Below, one piece after another: positions 7,794-14,859 of a stretch of DNA of 37,125 bases (position 1 is its first letter; the number at the start of each line of letters is the position of its first letter). The notes below the pieces were generated by a model. That model ran no database searches. It saw only the letters and a program-made list of their open reading frames with translations, and had not been told where the DNA came from. The DNA lies in IMG/VR virus record IMGVR_UViG_3300031463_000549, positions 1 to 37,125 of that record. One strand, written 5' to 3'. Made by a program: the position numbers and the translations under genes. The stretch is from a virus.

Positions 7794-8196
7794 CGAGCAG
7801 ATCAAGTTTATATTGGAGCACTACCTGGAGATAGCCTCCGGGAACATGCCGATTGACAGGGCCAAAGAATACTTGAAATCGTCTGGAAAGAAGAATCCTG
7901 CGGAGATTTTTATTATCTGGAAGGCTGATATAGACAGGGCTATTAGTGGTCTGTGCCCCAAAAATGACCTATGGTGCGATTTGTGCAGAGAAGTGACCGC
8001 GGAGATGCTTCGGTTCCATGCACGTAGCCTGTCCCAAATGCAAAGAGAAATTGTTATGGTACACATTATGAATGAATGGCCAGAAACGCCTTATTGCGAT
8101 GGGATTATTACAAGAATGCGCAAATTCCTTAATGGGAAGTTTGTGAACAAGAAATATATAATACAAATACCAATGATGACGCGAAATGATCGATAG
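7780..8196 (+). CDS. Hypothetical early phage protein
   Basis: A 138 aa, mostly helical protein beginning with an ATG inside the end of the preceding gene. It has one cysteine pair (CDLC near residue 67), a tryptophan-rich middle and a basic C-terminal segment (RMRKFLNGKFVNKKY). Position at the end of the early operon is where late-gene activators of the RinA/ArpU type often sit, but the sequence does not show their signature clearly. I leave function open. GC content drops sharply after this gene, which marks the boundary of the first cargo block. Confidence 0.5.
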   Translation: MSYSNEQIKFILEHYLEIASGNMPIDRAKEYLKSSGKKNPAEIFIIWKADIDRAISGLCPKNDLWCDLCREVTAEMLRFHARSLSQMQREIVMVHIMNEWPETPYCDGIITRMRKFLNGKFVNKKYIIQIPMMTRNDR

Positions 8197-8205
8197 GTAA
8201 TCTGA

Positions 8206-9031
8206 TTGAAAATGAAAAATAACAAGCATTCATTTGAGGTTCGAAATATTCGAGACGGTATTCAGGAAGTATCCTTGAATATTAAACAGCTTTATTCAGA
8301 TGAGATGGAACGTCGACAGTTAGACGAGAGGCTGGTTAAGTTCTTGGCTATAGATCAGCTTCATTCAAAAATATTTTCACTTCGAGGCGATTCGCTTGTT
8401 TATCTAACCGAGCATATTGTGCCTGAGAAAAACGACTTACGTCCTCCGCTCTTGATGCTTTTTGGCAATCCAGCACCGCAGTCTGTTGAATCCGAAATGT
8501 ACTTTGCTTCGCATTCAAATGGATCGGAGCATCGAATCTGGAGAGTCTTGCGCGAAGTAGGTTTTATCTCATTTGAACATGACGCTAATAACACGACAGA
8601 ACGTAATAGGTTGAGAAAACGAGCTCTTTATGAACTAACCTATCACTCACCATTTCGTATTGGCTTGGCAGTATTCTACTCGATGCCAAGTCCATCTAGT
8701 GGTCAATGGTCGGGAGTAGCAGGATTAAGGAGACTTTTTTGGAGCGAAGGCTTTCCGAGAATTGCGTGAATGTGAAAGATACCGAGTCGAGAAGGTGATT
8801 GATAATTTTGTATCTCCAAGTGGCGCCGTATTAGCTTTTCAGAAAGACGCATATTTAGGAGTAAAATCGACAGGAAGCCCTAATTACGTATTTGCGTTGG
8901 CTAAGCAAGGAAAGCTATTAGGTAGTTGTCAGTGTAATGATGAAATTAGACTCTTTTGCTGCCCTCCAACACGACTTATTCAAGCAAGGGAAACGATTGA
9001 GGTGCTTATGCTTTTTAAGCAGATTATCTAA
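8206..9031 (+). pseudogene. Frameshifted uracil-DNA-glycosylase-like gene
   Basis: Two frames, 8206-8769 and the frame ending at 9031, read as one protein if one T is removed from the T6 run at 8735-8740. The joined sequence passes from GVAGLRRLF into GAKAFRELRECERYRVEKV without loss of sense. The first part contains LLMLFGNPAPQSV, then a helix with EHRIWRVLREVGF, and MPSPSSGQWSG. The second part ends with CCPPTRLIQARE. The order of a GNP-type loop, a central segment and a late substrate loop resembles the uracil-DNA glycosylase superfamily. TTG 8206 has AGGT seven bases upstream, though ATG 8212 is possible. It is either a decayed gene, a sequencing error or a +1 frameshift. Confidence 0.5.
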
Positions 9032-9192
9032 TGGTAATGCCAAAAAGGATTAGAGCACTCAACCATATTGTTTTAGGATGCCTGTTGTTTCATGATGTTG
9101 ACTTACATAATAGTGAGGAGCATCATGTTTGAAATGGCATGATTGAAGAATTTCAGCCGTTAGTTGAAGTATTGTATAATTATGTCGCTTAA
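9031..9192 (+). pseudogene. Small ORF broken by an in-frame TGA before the methyltransferase
   Basis: A 54-codon frame starts in a TAATG overlap with the preceding stop. It is interrupted by TGA at 9130-9132 and continues in the same frame from the ATG at 9139 to a TAA directly touching the methyltransferase start (9193). The parts are 33 and 17 aa. No family is recognised. Position suggests either a decayed cargo gene or a leader whose translation is coupled to the methyltransferase. Confidence 0.35.
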
Positions 9193-10086
9193 ATGAATAC
9201 AAAATTGAAGATAACTGTACCTCCAATTAAGTGCCAAGGCATCAAGACAAAATTGATACCGTTTATCTTAGATTCGATAGATTGGAAAGGTAACGGTAAA
9301 TGGATTGAGCCGTTTTTAGGATCAGGAGTGGTGCTTTTCAATGTTAAGCCTAGGAAGGCTCTTGTCTCAGATACGAATGAGCATATAATAAGATTTTATC
9401 GAGATTTACAGGATGGGAGAATAAACGGGCTAGTCGTGCGAGAATATTTGGAGCATATGGGGAAAAAACTAAGTTCCGACGGAGAGGAATTCTACTATGC
9501 AACTAGGGATGAGTTCAATAAAAGCGGGTCTTCACTGGACTTATTATTCTTATCACGTTCGTGTTTTAATGGGATGATGAGATTCAGTTCTAAAGGTAAG
9601 TATAATGTCCCGTTTGGGCATAAGCCGGGGCGGTTCACAAAAGCATACATAACCAAAATAGTCAATCAAGTGGAGAAGGTCCGGGCAATAATGTATGAAA
9701 GGGATTGGGAATTCATATGTAGCGATTGGAAGGATACATTAGCAAAAGCCGATCATAATGACTTCGTTTATGTAGATCCCCCGTACATCGGACGGCATAC
9801 TGATTACTTCAATAAATGGCGAGATGAAGACTCATTTGAACTGGCAACTCACCTAAACAATCTCCACTGTGGCTTCGCTCTATCAATGTGGCTTGAGAAT
9901 CGCTATCGTAAAAATGAATATATTCAAAAGTACTTCAGCGATGCTGAAATCAAGACATTCAACCATTACTATCATGTTGGAGCCTCCGAAAATCAAAGAC
10001 ATGAAATGATAGAAGCACTGGTGATTAAAAAGGGATTCTCGCGTAATACTAAGATTGATAACCCCAACCAAAAACAACTTTTGTAA
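9193..10086 (+). CDS. EcoRV-type adenine-N6 DNA methyltransferase
   Basis: A 297 aa alpha-class (Dam/DpnM-like) DNA adenine methyltransferase. It is recognisable as an M.EcoRV homologue: the start PPIKCQGIKTKL, the AdoMet motif EPFLGSGVV (39-47), SRSCFNGMMRF (121-131), NVPFGHKPGRF, and the catalytic motif DPPYIGRH (195-202), then HYYHVGASE near the end. M.EcoRV modifies the first A of GATATC. It protects phage and lysogen DNA from the endonuclease encoded at 10448-11203. Start and stop touch the preceding small frame (TAAATG) and there is no clear Shine-Dalgarno sequence, so it may be translated by reinitiation. The gene is AT-rich relative to the structural genes. Confidence 0.93.
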   Translation: MNTKLKITVPPIKCQGIKTKLIPFILDSIDWKGNGKWIEPFLGSGVVLFNVKPRKALVSDTNEHIIRFYRDLQDGRINGLVVREYLEHMGKKLSSDGEEFYYATRDEFNKSGSSLDLLFLSRSCFNGMMRFSSKGKYNVPFGHKPGRFTKAYITKIVNQVEKVRAIMYERDWEFICSDWKDTLAKADHNDFVYVDPPYIGRHTDYFNKWRDEDSFELATHLNNLHCGFALSMWLENRYRKNEYIQKYFSDAEIKTFNHYYHVGASENQRHEMIEALVIKKGFSRNTKIDNPNQKQLL

Positions 10087-10182
10087 TACCTTGACATTCA
10101 GGTAGAGCAAGTCATATTTGCCTTAACCAATTGGATTCCTATGACAAGTATCTGATATACTCGAAATAATCAAACAAATACA

Positions 10183-10220
10183 AGCGATCAGTAATATGCA
10201 TAGCGATCAGTAATATGCAT
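10183..10220 (+). repeat. 19-bp perfect tandem repeat duplicating a start codon
   Basis: AGCGATCAGTAATATGCAT occurs twice without a gap (10183-10201, 10202-10220). Each copy carries the ATG of the next gene. In the first copy that ATG reads only four more codons before TAA, while the second copy holds the real start at 10215. Confidence 0.95.
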
Positions 10221-10451
10221 GAGGAGAAAGTATTAGTAGACTGCGGGTTATGTGGTGGAACAGGGAAATTCAAGCTGGGTACCGGCGCAACCCGAACATG
10301 TATTTCCTGCGATGGGAAAGGCAAATTACTTGTATCATCACTAGCAACCAAGTGCAAAAAGTGCCAGGGAACAGGTAGGATAGGTTGGCAGAGGAAGTGC
10401 GATGTTTGCGATCAAACTGGTTGGATAGGCGGTAAGAGAGTATCGAGCTAA
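10215..10451 (+). CDS. Free-standing DnaJ-type zinc-finger protein
   Basis: A 78 aa protein made almost wholly of four CxxCxGxG-like motifs: CGLCGGTG, CISCDGKG, CKKCQGTG and CDVCDQTG. This is the cysteine-rich module of DnaJ/Hsp40, which binds two zinc ions, but no J-domain or C-terminal substrate domain is present. It lies between the EcoRV-type methyltransferase (same strand) and endonuclease (opposite strand), and its last four bases overlap the endonuclease stop. Stand-alone modules of this kind occur in other small proteins, but a role beside this restriction system is unknown. It may assist folding, regulate, or merely be hitch-hiking. Confidence 0.85.
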   Translation: MHEEKVLVDCGLCGGTGKFKLGTGATRTCISCDGKGKLLVSSLATKCKKCQGTGRIGWQRKCDVCDQTGWIGGKRVSS

Positions 10452-11203
10452 GCTTTAACTCCAGTATTCTTTTTCCAACTTAAGTAGCCATCTAAATCAG
10501 TATATTTCCTTGGAGCATGCCAGTCGAAGTTCCTCCAGTAATCCTCAAATACCTCCTTACCTTTGTCCCCGAACTTTGTGAACACCCCCTTACCTTGTTT
10601 CAAGTCATTCAAGGAGTTTACAGATCCTATATTAGCTGTATTGCCACTACCAGGTTTATCTGAAGACAATTGCCACTTCTCGTGAACAAGAACTTCTACA
10701 TCATCTATAGCTGCTTTAACCTCGTGCAGTTTTTCAATCTTTGTTACTTCAGGTTTCTCGATGTCAGTAACTCGGCTATATATGTATCCTATTATCCAAT
10801 GCTCCCGATATTCCGTATATGGATAACTAATATTCTTTGTATATGGAGGGCGTATATATGCCGTATATGAACCAAGAGTAAAACCACCCCTATCTTCATC
10901 TCTACGAAATGTACTTTTAATGTCAATGGCTATCTTGTTGGGTATTTCACCTGGCAGTATCAGAGTGAGATCAGGATACACATTTTGTCTTTTTTCTATT
11001 TCCCATCTCTCTATATACGGTTCAACAGCCGGTATAATAATAGGGTAAGATACTAGCTCAAATATTTTAGAGATTAGTTTTGTATCATTCGAAATTGTGT
11101 ACAGTTGCCCTTTATCATCCACAACACCCTTAATGTGCCACTCAACACCGATTTCCTTAAAAGCGTTTATAATAATTGAGCGCAGATCAAAATCTTTGGC
11201 CAT
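10448..11203 (-). CDS. EcoRV-type type II restriction endonuclease
   Basis: A 251 aa protein clearly homologous to EcoRV, which cleaves GATATC in the centre. Active-site equivalents are all present: Glu49 in KIFELVSYPII, Asp78 in VYPDLTL, and Asp94/Lys96 in IAIDIKS. Further matches are GSYTAYIR, TKNISYP, EHWIIGYIYSRV, the recognition loop GSGNTAN (185-191; EcoRV has GSGNTTN), GKGVF and FEDYWRNF. Length is close to the 245 aa of EcoRV. It is transcribed toward the methyltransferase, so R and M are tail-to-tail with the DnaJ-type gene between. No frameshift or lost catalytic residue is seen, so it is probably active and specific for GATATC or a close relative. Confidence 0.93.
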   Translation of the reverse strand: MAKDFDLRSIIINAFKEIGVEWHIKGVVDDKGQLYTISNDTKLISKIFELVSYPIIIPAVEPYIERWEIEKRQNVYPDLTLILPGEIPNKIAIDIKSTFRRDEDRGGFTLGSYTAYIRPPYTKNISYPYTEYREHWIIGYIYSRVTDIEKPEVTKIEKLHEVKAAIDDVEVLVHEKWQLSSDKPGSGNTANIGSVNSLNDLKQGKGVFTKFGDKGKEVFEDYWRNFDWHAPRKYTDLDGYLSWKKNTGVKA

Positions 11204-11555
11204 ATAAATATCAGTCCGAATAATAAATAATTATATGTCGATTATCTCACGGCAGAGTTTTGTACGCAAACGCTCCATCTGGATTTATCGTGTTTGCAGT
11301 CTATAATGCTGGCTTGATGAATAATAATCCGCCCCAAGTTTATGAGATTGATGCTGTAATAATTAATGTGAGCCAAGTTTCCACGAAAGTATGGGAGGCT
11401 CAAGCTAACGCCTCAATCCCTATTGACATCACAGATACGAAATTAACGGGTTGACAAATACAAACGAACGTAAATATAATTGAGATAAGTTGGAAAAGTC
11501 CGCAGAGATGCGGGCTTTTTTATATTCACGTTTTATTTACTTTGGTAGTAACTAT
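11204..11555. other. AT-rich gap upstream of the endonuclease gene
   Basis: This 352-base stretch holds the likely promoter region of the minus-strand endonuclease and an intrinsic terminator at 11497. An open frame from about 11227 to 11454 on the plus strand has only a TTG start (11260) and no convincing ribosome-binding site. Its product contains IPIDITDTKLTG near the end and looks like a gene fragment. I do not call it as a gene. Confidence 0.5.
11497..11521 (+). terminator. Rho-independent terminator
   Basis: Arms AGTCCGCA (11497-11504) and TGCGGGCT (11509-11516) pair over eight positions with one G-T pair around a GAGA loop, followed by a run of T. On the other strand a shorter T-rich stretch follows the stem, so it may also end the gene at 11556. 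Confidence 0.85.
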
Positions 11556-12236
11556 TTATTCCTCCCAATGATTGAAAATGCCTGTGGTTTCAAGCAATTT
11601 GACGCCGGCCCATCTGCAAATAAAATATATAGCTAACGCGTCTGCCGGTGTATAACAATGCGCATCAGGCAAGATGTGTTCGACGGAGTGCTTGGATTTT
11701 CTGTACACGATCCAATTAAGCATATTCAGAAAATCAAGAAAGCTTGGTTCTAGGGTACTTCCGATAAATGCTCTGTGATTTAATAATATCCCCAATGAGG
11801 ATCTATCAGATTCGGGAATATTGAAACGATATTTTACTGAGTTCTCTATATGCAAGCATGAATCCAGAACAATACGGCGCGCATTCCAAAACAAATCACC
11901 GAAGCTAATCCACGCATAGACATACTGTATTGGCCGAAATAATGGCCGGAATTCTATTTTATAAGAGCCGGTTAACAGTTCACCCTCCTGTCGATTCACA
12001 TTGTGAAGACCGACTCCGCCTAATGATTGATCAATCGTAATTATTTGATGATATCCTTCCAATATATTCTTCTCAGTTGTTTCTGCCAATTTAATTATTT
12101 CCTGCGGTTGGACATTAAGGCCACTTTGATTCAACAAATCCTCTATATTTTGAGAAAGTGGTCTTTGAGAGAAGGCACTCTTTAACTTTGGCAATCTTTT
12201 TTTACAGAAGTTGCAAATAGAGAATATCTTCATCAT
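11556..12236 (-). CDS. Hypothetical protein in cargo block 1
   Basis: About 226 aa. The start is the ATG at 12236 (or the adjacent ATG at 12233) because GGAGG lies 4 to 7 bases upstream, whereas the longer frame to 12314 has no such signal. The protein begins with a short cysteine motif (CNFCKKR) and then shows mixed helices and strands: a QSLGGVGLHN segment, YAWISFGDLFWNARR, and a C-terminal YTPADALAIYFICRWAGVKLLE. I do not recognise the family. No membrane segment or signal peptide is evident. Low GC and opposite orientation mark it as cargo, and its neighbours make a defence or accessory role possible but unproven. Confidence 0.55.
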   Translation of the reverse strand: MMKIFSICNFCKKRLPKLKSAFSQRPLSQNIEDLLNQSGLNVQPQEIIKLAETTEKNILEGYHQIITIDQSLGGVGLHNVNRQEGELLTGSYKIEFRPLFRPIQYVYAWISFGDLFWNARRIVLDSCLHIENSVKYRFNIPESDRSSLGILLNHRAFIGSTLEPSFLDFLNMLNWIVYRKSKHSVEHILPDAHCYTPADALAIYFICRWAGVKLLETTGIFNHWEE

Positions 12237-12334
12237 CCTGCCTCCTAAAATATGTTCTACATTATTATAGCCCAAGATTAAGAGCCCCAATAGCTTTTCC
12301 ATAATAACACGCAATGGTTTAAAAACCTGGTGTC

Positions 12335-12776: not shown

Positions 12777-12815
12777 AATTCACAGAATTGGCATAGGGGG
12801 GTCTAAACGTGAATT
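12777..12815. other. Candidate cos (DNA packaging) site
   Basis: Between the packaging HNH gene and the terminases, a G6 run (12796-12801, then TCTAAA) is bracketed by the inverted pair AATTCAC (12777-12783) and GTGAATT (12809-12815). The stretch is non-coding. cos sites of HNH-encoding phages commonly lie beside the HNH gene in such asymmetric, G-rich non-coding DNA. This rests on position and base pattern only. Confidence 0.4.
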
Positions 12816-12871
12816 AGGTATAAATTTACTATACTAACTTAGGCTAAGGTTCAGCCGTTGCTCAATATGTT

Positions 12872-13564
12872 TTACGCTTCCAAATACTTTCGCTCCCCCT
12901 TCACCCAAGAAAAAAATAAATCGATGCGTCCGACTTTCTTACCATAAACAATGCTGTTCTCAGTTACATTATTTACACTGAACAAGGTTAAAAATTGCTT
13001 GTAATCGGAAAATGCCTGCGGATCATCACCAAAAGAATGTATGAGCACAAGCGCCACTGTCGCGTTAAATTTATCAGCTTCAATAACTGCACTCGCAGTC
13101 CTGTGTAGAAGTTGATATTTACAGGGTCCAAAATCAACCGACTTCAGTGATAATAAATTAAGCAGGTAATCCAGCCTAGTAATTTTCCCTGAGCTTTTAT
13201 TTGCCAGCCATTCATTTACGGTATCGCCAAATCCTTCTAACGCCTTACCTTCGACCACTATGGATACAAGTCTGCCATCACTCCTGGCCAATATAAAGAT
13301 GTCACTTTGAGATGGACGTCCTCCGACCGGTGGTAAAAAGGTTTTGTACTCGGGGAAGGCCATCAGCATTTTGATGTTTTGAAACGTATTGTTGCCCGAT
13401 GATTTGAATACTTTTAGTACCGAGTGAGGAAAATTCCTATTAGCAGAATGCCAGCAATAAGCTAGTGATTTTGCAGAATATCCAGTTTTCCAATGTTTAT
13501 GGGGTTCAGCAAGTAATGGTTTCCAATCTTCAGCCGACAATGCTGGTACAAAAAACACACTCAT
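12872..13564 (-). CDS. Probable PD-(D/E)XK-type nuclease (DUF6946-like)
   Basis: A 230 aa protein with GGAGG about 7 bases before the ATG. The region GGRPSQSDIFILAR (81-94), followed by LVSIVVEGKALEGFG (99-113), gives Asp88, Glu105 and Lys107. These fit the D...(D/E)xK core of restriction-endonuclease-like folds, with the GGxPSQxDI approach I associate with DUF6946. Downstream are KITRLDYLLNLL and VALVLIHSF, a typical core strand. It is on the opposite strand to the packaging genes and lies between HNH and the ParB-methyltransferase. A restriction or defence role, possibly paired with that methyltransferase, is inferred. The fold assignment is moderately sure. Confidence 0.6.
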   Translation of the reverse strand: MSVFFVPALSAEDWKPLLAEPHKHWKTGYSAKSLAYCWHSANRNFPHSVLKVFKSSGNNTFQNIKMLMAFPEYKTFLPPVGGRPSQSDIFILARSDGRLVSIVVEGKALEGFGDTVNEWLANKSSGKITRLDYLLNLLSLKSVDFGPCKYQLLHRTASAVIEADKFNATVALVLIHSFGDDPQAFSDYKQFLTLFSVNNVTENSIVYGKKVGRIDLFFSWVKGERKYLEA

Positions 13565-13653
13565 GCCAAGACCTCCTCGTTATTTGAATACTCTAATTAT
13601 ATCAATTAATTGGACGATTTTGTTCTTATAGGATAACACGATGGTGATCTGAA

Positions 13654-14859
13654 ATGAAGCTAAAAACCGTCAAAATAGCAGAGCTAAAACCGCATCCTAA
13701 GAACCCTCGCCAGCACCCTGACAGCGCCATCGCCAAATTGACCAGATCAATCCAGGAGTTCGGCTGGACCAACCCGGTGCTCGTTTCCAAGGATGGCGTT
13801 GTCCTGGCCGGGCATGCCAGGCTAAAGGCAGCGGAGAAGGCCGGCATCACCGATATACCCGCCATCTACCTTGATCTGGAGGGCGCCAAGGCCGATGCCT
13901 ATCTGATCGCAGACAACAAGACCCAGGACTTGACCGACTGGGATCTGCCGTTACTTAAAGACCTGCTGCAGGAACTGGACACCGGCGAGTTCGACCTGAC
14001 CGTTACAGGCTTCGATGAAGACGAGATCGAAGGCCTGATGACGCAATTACACGTGCCGGAGGAAGGATTGACCGATGACGATGAGATACCGGAGGATGTT
14101 GAATCTGTCTGCAAATCCGGTGATCTCTGGCAGCTGGACGTGCACAGGCTATTGTGCGGCGATTCAACTTCGATGAGCGATATCGAGAGGCTGACCAAAG
14201 GGGAGAAGGTCGATCTTGTCTTTACCGATCCGCCCTATAACGTGAACTGGGAATATCGCGGCAAGATGCACGGCGAGAGGTTCAACGGCATCCTCAATGA
14301 CAACCTCAACCCGGCGGAGTGGACCGAGTTCTGCGGCAAGTTCATCGCCAATATATCGGCCGTCTTGAAGGAAGGGCATGCCTATTATATATGCTCCGGC
14401 TGGAACTCCTTTGGAGAGTTCGAGAGAAACCTGAAGCAGAATAAATGCGAGTTCAGGCAGCTGATCGTCTGGGCCAAGAACCAGTTTGTGCTGGGCAAGT
14501 TCAACACGGATTACAACCGCCAGCACGAGCAGATACTCTACGGCTGGAAGGAGGGTAAGGCGCACCGCTGGTTCGGAGGGCATTCAGAGACCGACCTCTG
14601 GCAGATCGACAAGGTTCACAATACCAAGATGGTGCACAGCACCGAGAAGCCGGTAGGACTGGCAGAACGGGCCATCAAGAACAGTAGCCAGCTCAACGAT
14701 CTGGTCTTGGATCTATTTACAGGCTCGGGGTCGACGCTGATAGCCTGTGAGAAGATGGGGCGCAGGTTCTGCGGCCTGGAGCTCGACCCCAAGTACTGCG
14801 ATGTCATCATCAACCGCTGGCAGAACTTCACCGGCAAGCAGGCATCAAAGATTGAATAA
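13654..14859 (+). CDS. ParB-domain DNA methyltransferase fusion
   Basis: A 401 aa protein with an N-terminal ParB/Srx-like domain (PHPKNPRQHP, IQEFGWTNPVLV, GHARLKAA at 53-60, IADNKTQD), a short acidic linker, and a C-terminal beta-class N4/N6 DNA methyltransferase. The catalytic motif TDPPYNV is at 191-197 and the AdoMet motif LDLFTGSGSTLIACE lies near the end, so the order is IV then I. Such fusions are common in phages near terminase genes and modify phage DNA, often to escape host restriction. It may also couple modification to packaging. The ATG follows GGTGATCT at normal spacing. It ends opposite a RAMA-like reader on the other strand. Confidence 0.9.
   Translation: MKLKTVKIAELKPHPKNPRQHPDSAIAKLTRSIQEFGWTNPVLVSKDGVVLAGHARLKAAEKAGITDIPAIYLDLEGAKADAYLIADNKTQDLTDWDLPLLKDLLQELDTGEFDLTVTGFDEDEIEGLMTQLHVPEEGLTDDDEIPEDVESVCKSGDLWQLDVHRLLCGDSTSMSDIERLTKGEKVDLVFTDPPYNVNWEYRGKMHGERFNGILNDNLNPAEWTEFCGKFIANISAVLKEGHAYYICSGWNSFGEFERNLKQNKCEFRQLIVWAKNQFVLGKFNTDYNRQHEQILYGWKEGKAHRWFGGHSETDLWQIDKVHNTKMVHSTEKPVGLAERAIKNSSQLNDLVLDLFTGSGSTLIACEKMGRRFCGLELDPKYCDVIINRWQNFTGKQASKIE

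Follow-up and report, generated by a model that had tools for sequence, protein, structure and literature searches.

An EcoRV-type restriction-modification pair as putative defence cargo in a variable slot of a predicted temperate phage

Introduction

A known relative of the gene pair analysed here is the EcoRV system of the E. coli plasmid pLG13 (NC_005019), in which the endonuclease (R) and methylase (M) genes are divergent and a helix-turn-helix regulator overlaps R. The recognition elements of EcoRV are the R-loop and the Q-loop, and its Asp74 is catalytic (PMC4081073). Restriction-modification (R-M) systems are rare in phages, those of prophages being enriched in Type II (PMC4176335), and carriage of a Type II system by a temperate phage is already on record for EcoT38I, borne by a P2 prophage (cited in PMC4176335), although this is a different R-M system on a different phage from the one considered here. 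A virus-encoded EcoRV homologue, annotated as such, is also present in Halovirus HGTV-1 as gp181 (KC292026). Prophage hotspots, in which 1-5 kb of variable DNA lies between conserved genes, are likewise an established pattern (PMC9122126).

The window, meaning the whole stretch of 37,125 bases that was analysed, is a complete IMG/VR virus record and carries both an R and an M gene. The pair resembles the pLG13 system in R (40% identity), in M (49%) and in the catalytic and R-loop residues, and differs from it in being phage-borne and convergent, in having no adjacent regulator and in the small zinc-type open reading frame (ORF) that lies between the genes. Among the matches listed, the closest two-part relative is a convergent pair in the Chloroflexi MAG L028 (R 66%, M 57%); unlike the window, it has housekeeping-type neighbours with no phage context seen, and its R and M genes abut without a zinc ORF. 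At 197 aa, HGTV-1 gp181 is shorter than the window R and only 28% identical to it, and the 8.5-kb stretch examined there contains no gene like that of M.EcoRV. The novelty implied by the original prediction, which was made from the window's letters, was overstated, given that HGTV-1 and further viral contigs have EcoRV homologues and that Type II R-M was already known from prophages: the enzyme pair is one more phage-borne member of a large, well-known family.

Results and discussion

A predicted temperate phage

The gene content of the window comprises a serine-recombinase integrase, a repressor-like gene, primase-type replication genes, an HNH gene, a terminase and a structural module, and the window is predicted to be a temperate phage. 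The record opens on a reverse-complemented stop codon and closes on a forward one, ends that would match a provirus trimmed computationally to its genes. The best named-phage matches of its TerL are phages of Clostridia and other Bacillota, at approximately 54%. A TerL search for the host gave nothing at E 1e-200 among 380 genomes of the class to which a Selenomonadaceae MAG belongs, and in 391 genomes from the class of a Clostridiales MAG no match exceeded 55% identity; the window's replication protein, used as a scan query, returned zero relatives.

The endonuclease and the methylase

Profile and homologue matches bear out the original prediction that the phage carries an EcoRV-type R-M pair, and both genes are intact. 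The R gene (10448-11203, minus strand) encodes 251 aa and matches Pfam PF09233 (Endonuc-EcoRV) over residues 20-227 with a score of 206 bits (cut-off 25), and the solved EcoRV chains with an E-value of 1e-49 across residues 6-243 (phmmer), a similarity that is enough to fix its fold. Alignment to EcoRV places Glu45, Asp74, Asp90 and Lys92 of that enzyme opposite Glu49, Asp78, Asp94 and Lys96 of the window R, the residues that had been named as its active site; none is lost, and all four are invariant in the seven family members aligned. The recognition loop, predicted to be kept as GSGNTAN, is indeed present and differs from the GSGNTTN of EcoRV at T187A, a change shared with two other aligned members. 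Thus G182, S183, G184, N185, T186 and N188 of the R-loop are retained, as is Q69 of the Q-loop. Near the recognition loops the window R differs from EcoRV by Q68R, H71V, A181P and T187A, all at positions that vary across the EcoRV family; no literature naming Asn185 or Thr186 of EcoRV was found. Judged by its alignment, R is a full-length EcoRV-family endonuclease, apparently intact, and GATATC is the best guess at the specificity of the pair.

The M gene (9193-10086, plus strand) encodes 297 aa that score 143 bits against PF02086, 182 bits against TIGR00571 and 414 bits against the PADLOC profile MTase_II PDLC03264. The proposed alignment with M.EcoRV runs over the full length at 49% identity (274 aa), with DPPYIGRH and PPIK.QGIKTKL kept, and a homologue on a Geobacillus plasmid is 63.5% identical. 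By these matches M is a full-length M.EcoRV-type methylase of the D12/Dam family, a class with N6-adenine as its predicted target. Its ATG is immediately preceded by a stop codon and TATAAT stands at 9175-9180, 12 bases upstream of the start, so that the M transcript may be nearly leaderless.

GATATC occurs 23 times in the window, against about 19 sites expected from shorter words, and avoidance of the site by the phage was rejected on this count. Since the site is not avoided in its own DNA, the phage would need M. A further gene at 13654-14859, which joins a phage ParB domain to an N6/N4 methylase and is kept in sister phages, gives the phage a second methylase outside the stretch that holds the R-M pair.

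M and R are separated by an ORF of 78 aa with an uncertain start codon (10215-10451, plus strand), which the original prediction overlooked. Its CXXC motifs suggest a zinc-binding protein of DnaJ/anti-TRAP-like type, a reading made by eye and from sub-threshold Pfam matches (DnaJ_CXXCXGXG, 22.8 bits; Anti-TRAP, 21.1 bits). Just before this ORF, at 10185-10220, GCGATCAGTAATATGCAT is duplicated in tandem.

Upstream of M and of R no Shine-Dalgarno sequence can be seen, and none of the six ORFs at 8206-11454 has a Pfam match to a helix-turn-helix controller (C) gene, such as lies adjacent in the E. coli, Geobacillus, Acinetobacter and Leuconostoc relatives; the original prediction had likewise passed over this lack of a controller. 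Given these two absences, expression of R and M can only be inferred. It is conceivable that the pair no longer restricts, being a silent or decaying remnant, as might be indicated by the lack of visible ribosome-binding sites and of a controller gene, the additional ORF separating M from R and the residue changes close to the recognition loops. However, this is improbable for two reasons: first, both frames are full length and all examined catalytic and R-loop residues are kept except T187A; second, a decaying R would be expected to lose its active site or its frame.

Gene order and methylase partners in the EcoRV family

Relatives of the EcoRV endonuclease were found at no fewer than 533 genome loci, of which the genome scan kept 80. 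In IMG/VR a viral scan with an alignment as query recovered 17 EcoRV-type loci, whereas the window R alone as query gave no matches. When only M.EcoRV-like genes are taken as partners, the adjacent pairs among the matches listed, window included (n=82), comprise 49 in the order R-then-M, 15 convergent, 14 M-then-R and 4 divergent. R and M in the window do converge, as predicted; the implied novelty of this order does not hold, with approximately 15 of 82 adjacent pairs convergent and plasmid systems among them, and convergence was rejected as an unusual feature.

Of the five endonucleases closest to the window R among the matches listed, four converge with a D12-type methylase of another class (motif DTPY): L027 (66%), L029 (60%), L030 (50%) and L031 (48%). 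An M.EcoRV-type partner is found, unlike in these, at L028 (R 66%) and in the window. The other D12 class, DTPY where it was read, accompanies an EcoRV-type R at L027, L029, L032-L034, L036, L038, L040, L053, L058, L059, L069, L072, L084 and L106. When the M.EcoRV-type partner label is mapped onto a 99-endonuclease tree, 11 changes are required, of which well-supported branches force at least seven; partners missing on cut contigs may inflate this count. The nearest relative of the window M, that of the Geobacillus plasmid, is not the nearest of the window R among the matches listed, which fits separate histories for the two genes. On this tree the EcoRV-type endonuclease has switched methylase partner class several times, and such repeated change bears on how R-M pairs are assembled.

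Two of the convergent partners have an unusual architecture. At L031:5746-7515 (minus strand) a LexA DNA-binding domain and an S24 peptidase (Pfam) are joined to a D12 methylase that converges with an EcoRV-type R, and at L030:1135-2856 (minus strand) a similar fusion of a LexA-type repressor and a D12 methylase (blastp, 53%) is likewise convergent with an EcoRV-type R. Their domain content suggests that DNA damage may govern modification or expression; a search of the literature turned up no description of a LexA-methylase fusion with R-M.

A variable slot between conserved flanks

The pair was said to lie in an AT-rich block of a phage early region. The block is AT-rich, with a GC content of 38-40% against 46-60% over most of the remaining window; its placement was loose, in that it sits between the replication genes and the terminase and late genes. 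Four sister-phage contigs, L128, L115, L109 and L132, have a TerL 81-95% identical to that of the window, and comparison with them places the pair in a variable cargo slot at 8170-11391, which is visible only by such comparison and so could not have been seen in the original prediction. By blastn, homology to L128 ends at 8169 and restarts at 11392; on the right it restarts at 11392 in L115 and at 11396 in L109. To the left lies a conserved 138-aa phage ORF (7780-8196, plus strand), 75% identical as a protein in L128 and aligned in L115 too, with no family match and none in PHROGs. To the right lies a conserved 132-bp element (11392-11523, plus strand), 82-88% identical in all four sisters, the left part of which is probably the tail of an open frame; it continues with a promoter-like TTGACA-18-TATAAT at 11451-11480 (12/12 promoter match) and a terminator-like hairpin at approximately 11493-11520 (-16.8 kcal/mol, z -5.45).

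Between these flanks the window, L128, L115 and L109 share no nucleotide similarity. L128 carries a methylase with a DpnII-family endonuclease (PF04556, 254 bits), and in L115 a methylase (PDLC03363, 411 bits) converges with an MvaI/BcnI-family endonuclease (PF15515, 132 bits). In L109 a 746-aa N6_Mtase-like protein and a 199-aa ORF with PD...EGK are putatively an R-M pair, judged by these features, and an IS3-type transposase adjoins; this contig does not include the left flank, so that the left anchor is not visible, and L132 is too short for the slot to be read. All four readable slots, window included, thus contain R-M-type genes, each of a different type and three of them well supported, a pattern that rests on the small sample of four phages of one lineage. 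Inspection of more distant relatives (TerL 50-72%, or HNH 53-58%) found no obvious R-M at the matching place. The slot in the window also holds, at 8206-9031, two overlapping frames, 187 aa and 89 aa long, perhaps a single gene split by a frameshift; by eye the 187-aa frame resembles uracil-DNA-glycosylase-type proteins (GNPAP...W).

The locus has the form of a prophage hotspot, variable cargo between conserved sequences with edges at 8169 and 11392 and unrelated in three sisters. Like published defence hotspots it is a small, variable, defence-filled locus with conserved phage genes on either side; it differs from them in phage lineage and position, and in that four of four members here are R-M-type. 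From these comparisons the slot looks like a prophage defence slot that exchanges whole R-M cassettes.

A role for the slot in defence

It is suggested, with a probability of roughly 0.7, that the pair is a functional Type IIP EcoRV-type R-M serving as defence cargo of a temperate phage, in a lineage-specific slot where entire R-M cassettes are exchanged. Restriction at GATATC by the lysogen, as originally predicted, is plausible: M would methylate an adenine of this site and R would cleave incoming DNA unmethylated there, such that the pair would protect the lysogen and possibly stabilise the prophage. Recombination among related phages at the 138-aa ORF and the promoter-terminator element would trade cassettes of different specificity. 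In favour of this reading were counted the identity and residues of R and M, the sharp slot edges, the sister cargoes, the low GC, the integrase with the repressor-like gene, the GATATC sites that are not avoided, the stop-codon record ends and the published patterns of prophage hotspots and of Type II enrichment; against it, the lack of a Shine-Dalgarno sequence and of a controller, the substitutions Q68R, H71V, A181P and T187A, the four slots available, with a putative system in L109, the distant relatives without obvious R-M and the host searches that found no host.

The position of the slot could be read differently. A promoter with a terminator directly after it, as in the right anchor, recalls by analogy antitermination-controlled late promoters, and given that this conserved element and the early-late junction adjoin the slot, the pair might act in the lytic cycle, with R degrading host or superinfecting DNA and M shielding the phage genome, a role suggested for the R-M genes of archaeal tailed viruses (PMC8651126). 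There is little to recommend this scenario, as methylation of the lysogen genome by M would protect the host DNA, and R and M lie on opposite strands, with R running against the late operon. Nor is defence the only role open to an active system: its main function might be addiction, in which post-segregational killing stabilises the prophage or the slot and phage defence is secondary. Type II pairs are capable of this, it has been proposed for prophages (PMC4176335), and no other toxin-antitoxin genes were identified among the slot ORFs. This is unlikely, though somewhat less so than a lytic role; addiction by itself does not explain the differing specificities of the sisters, although mutual exclusion between R-M systems could.

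Returning to the reading as exchangeable defence cargo, a more specific and tentative extension, which we consider possible without favouring it, is that the slot is specialised for Type II R-M and that sisters recombine cassettes of differing specificity at the 138-aa ORF and the promoter-terminator element. Related prophages would then endow their hosts with mutually incompatible restriction barriers and form, in effect, restriction-type incompatibility groups. Sisters with common flanks and EcoRV-, DpnII- or MvaI/BcnI-type systems allow this diversification of prophage specificity for mutual exclusion to be tested.

Neighbouring insertions

A second, separate insertion at 12806-13651 (minus strand), absent from sister phages, holds a DUF6946 gene (12872-13564, minus strand; PF22187, 247 bits), possibly another defence gene; the 846-bp stretch is replaced by approximately 7 bp in L128, L109 and L132. 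Immediately right of the promoter-terminator element, 11524-12333 is a single-gene variable spot, which is occupied by a 252-aa protein in the window, a lipoprotein-like ORF in L128, an NYN-domain protein in L109 and another ORF in L115.
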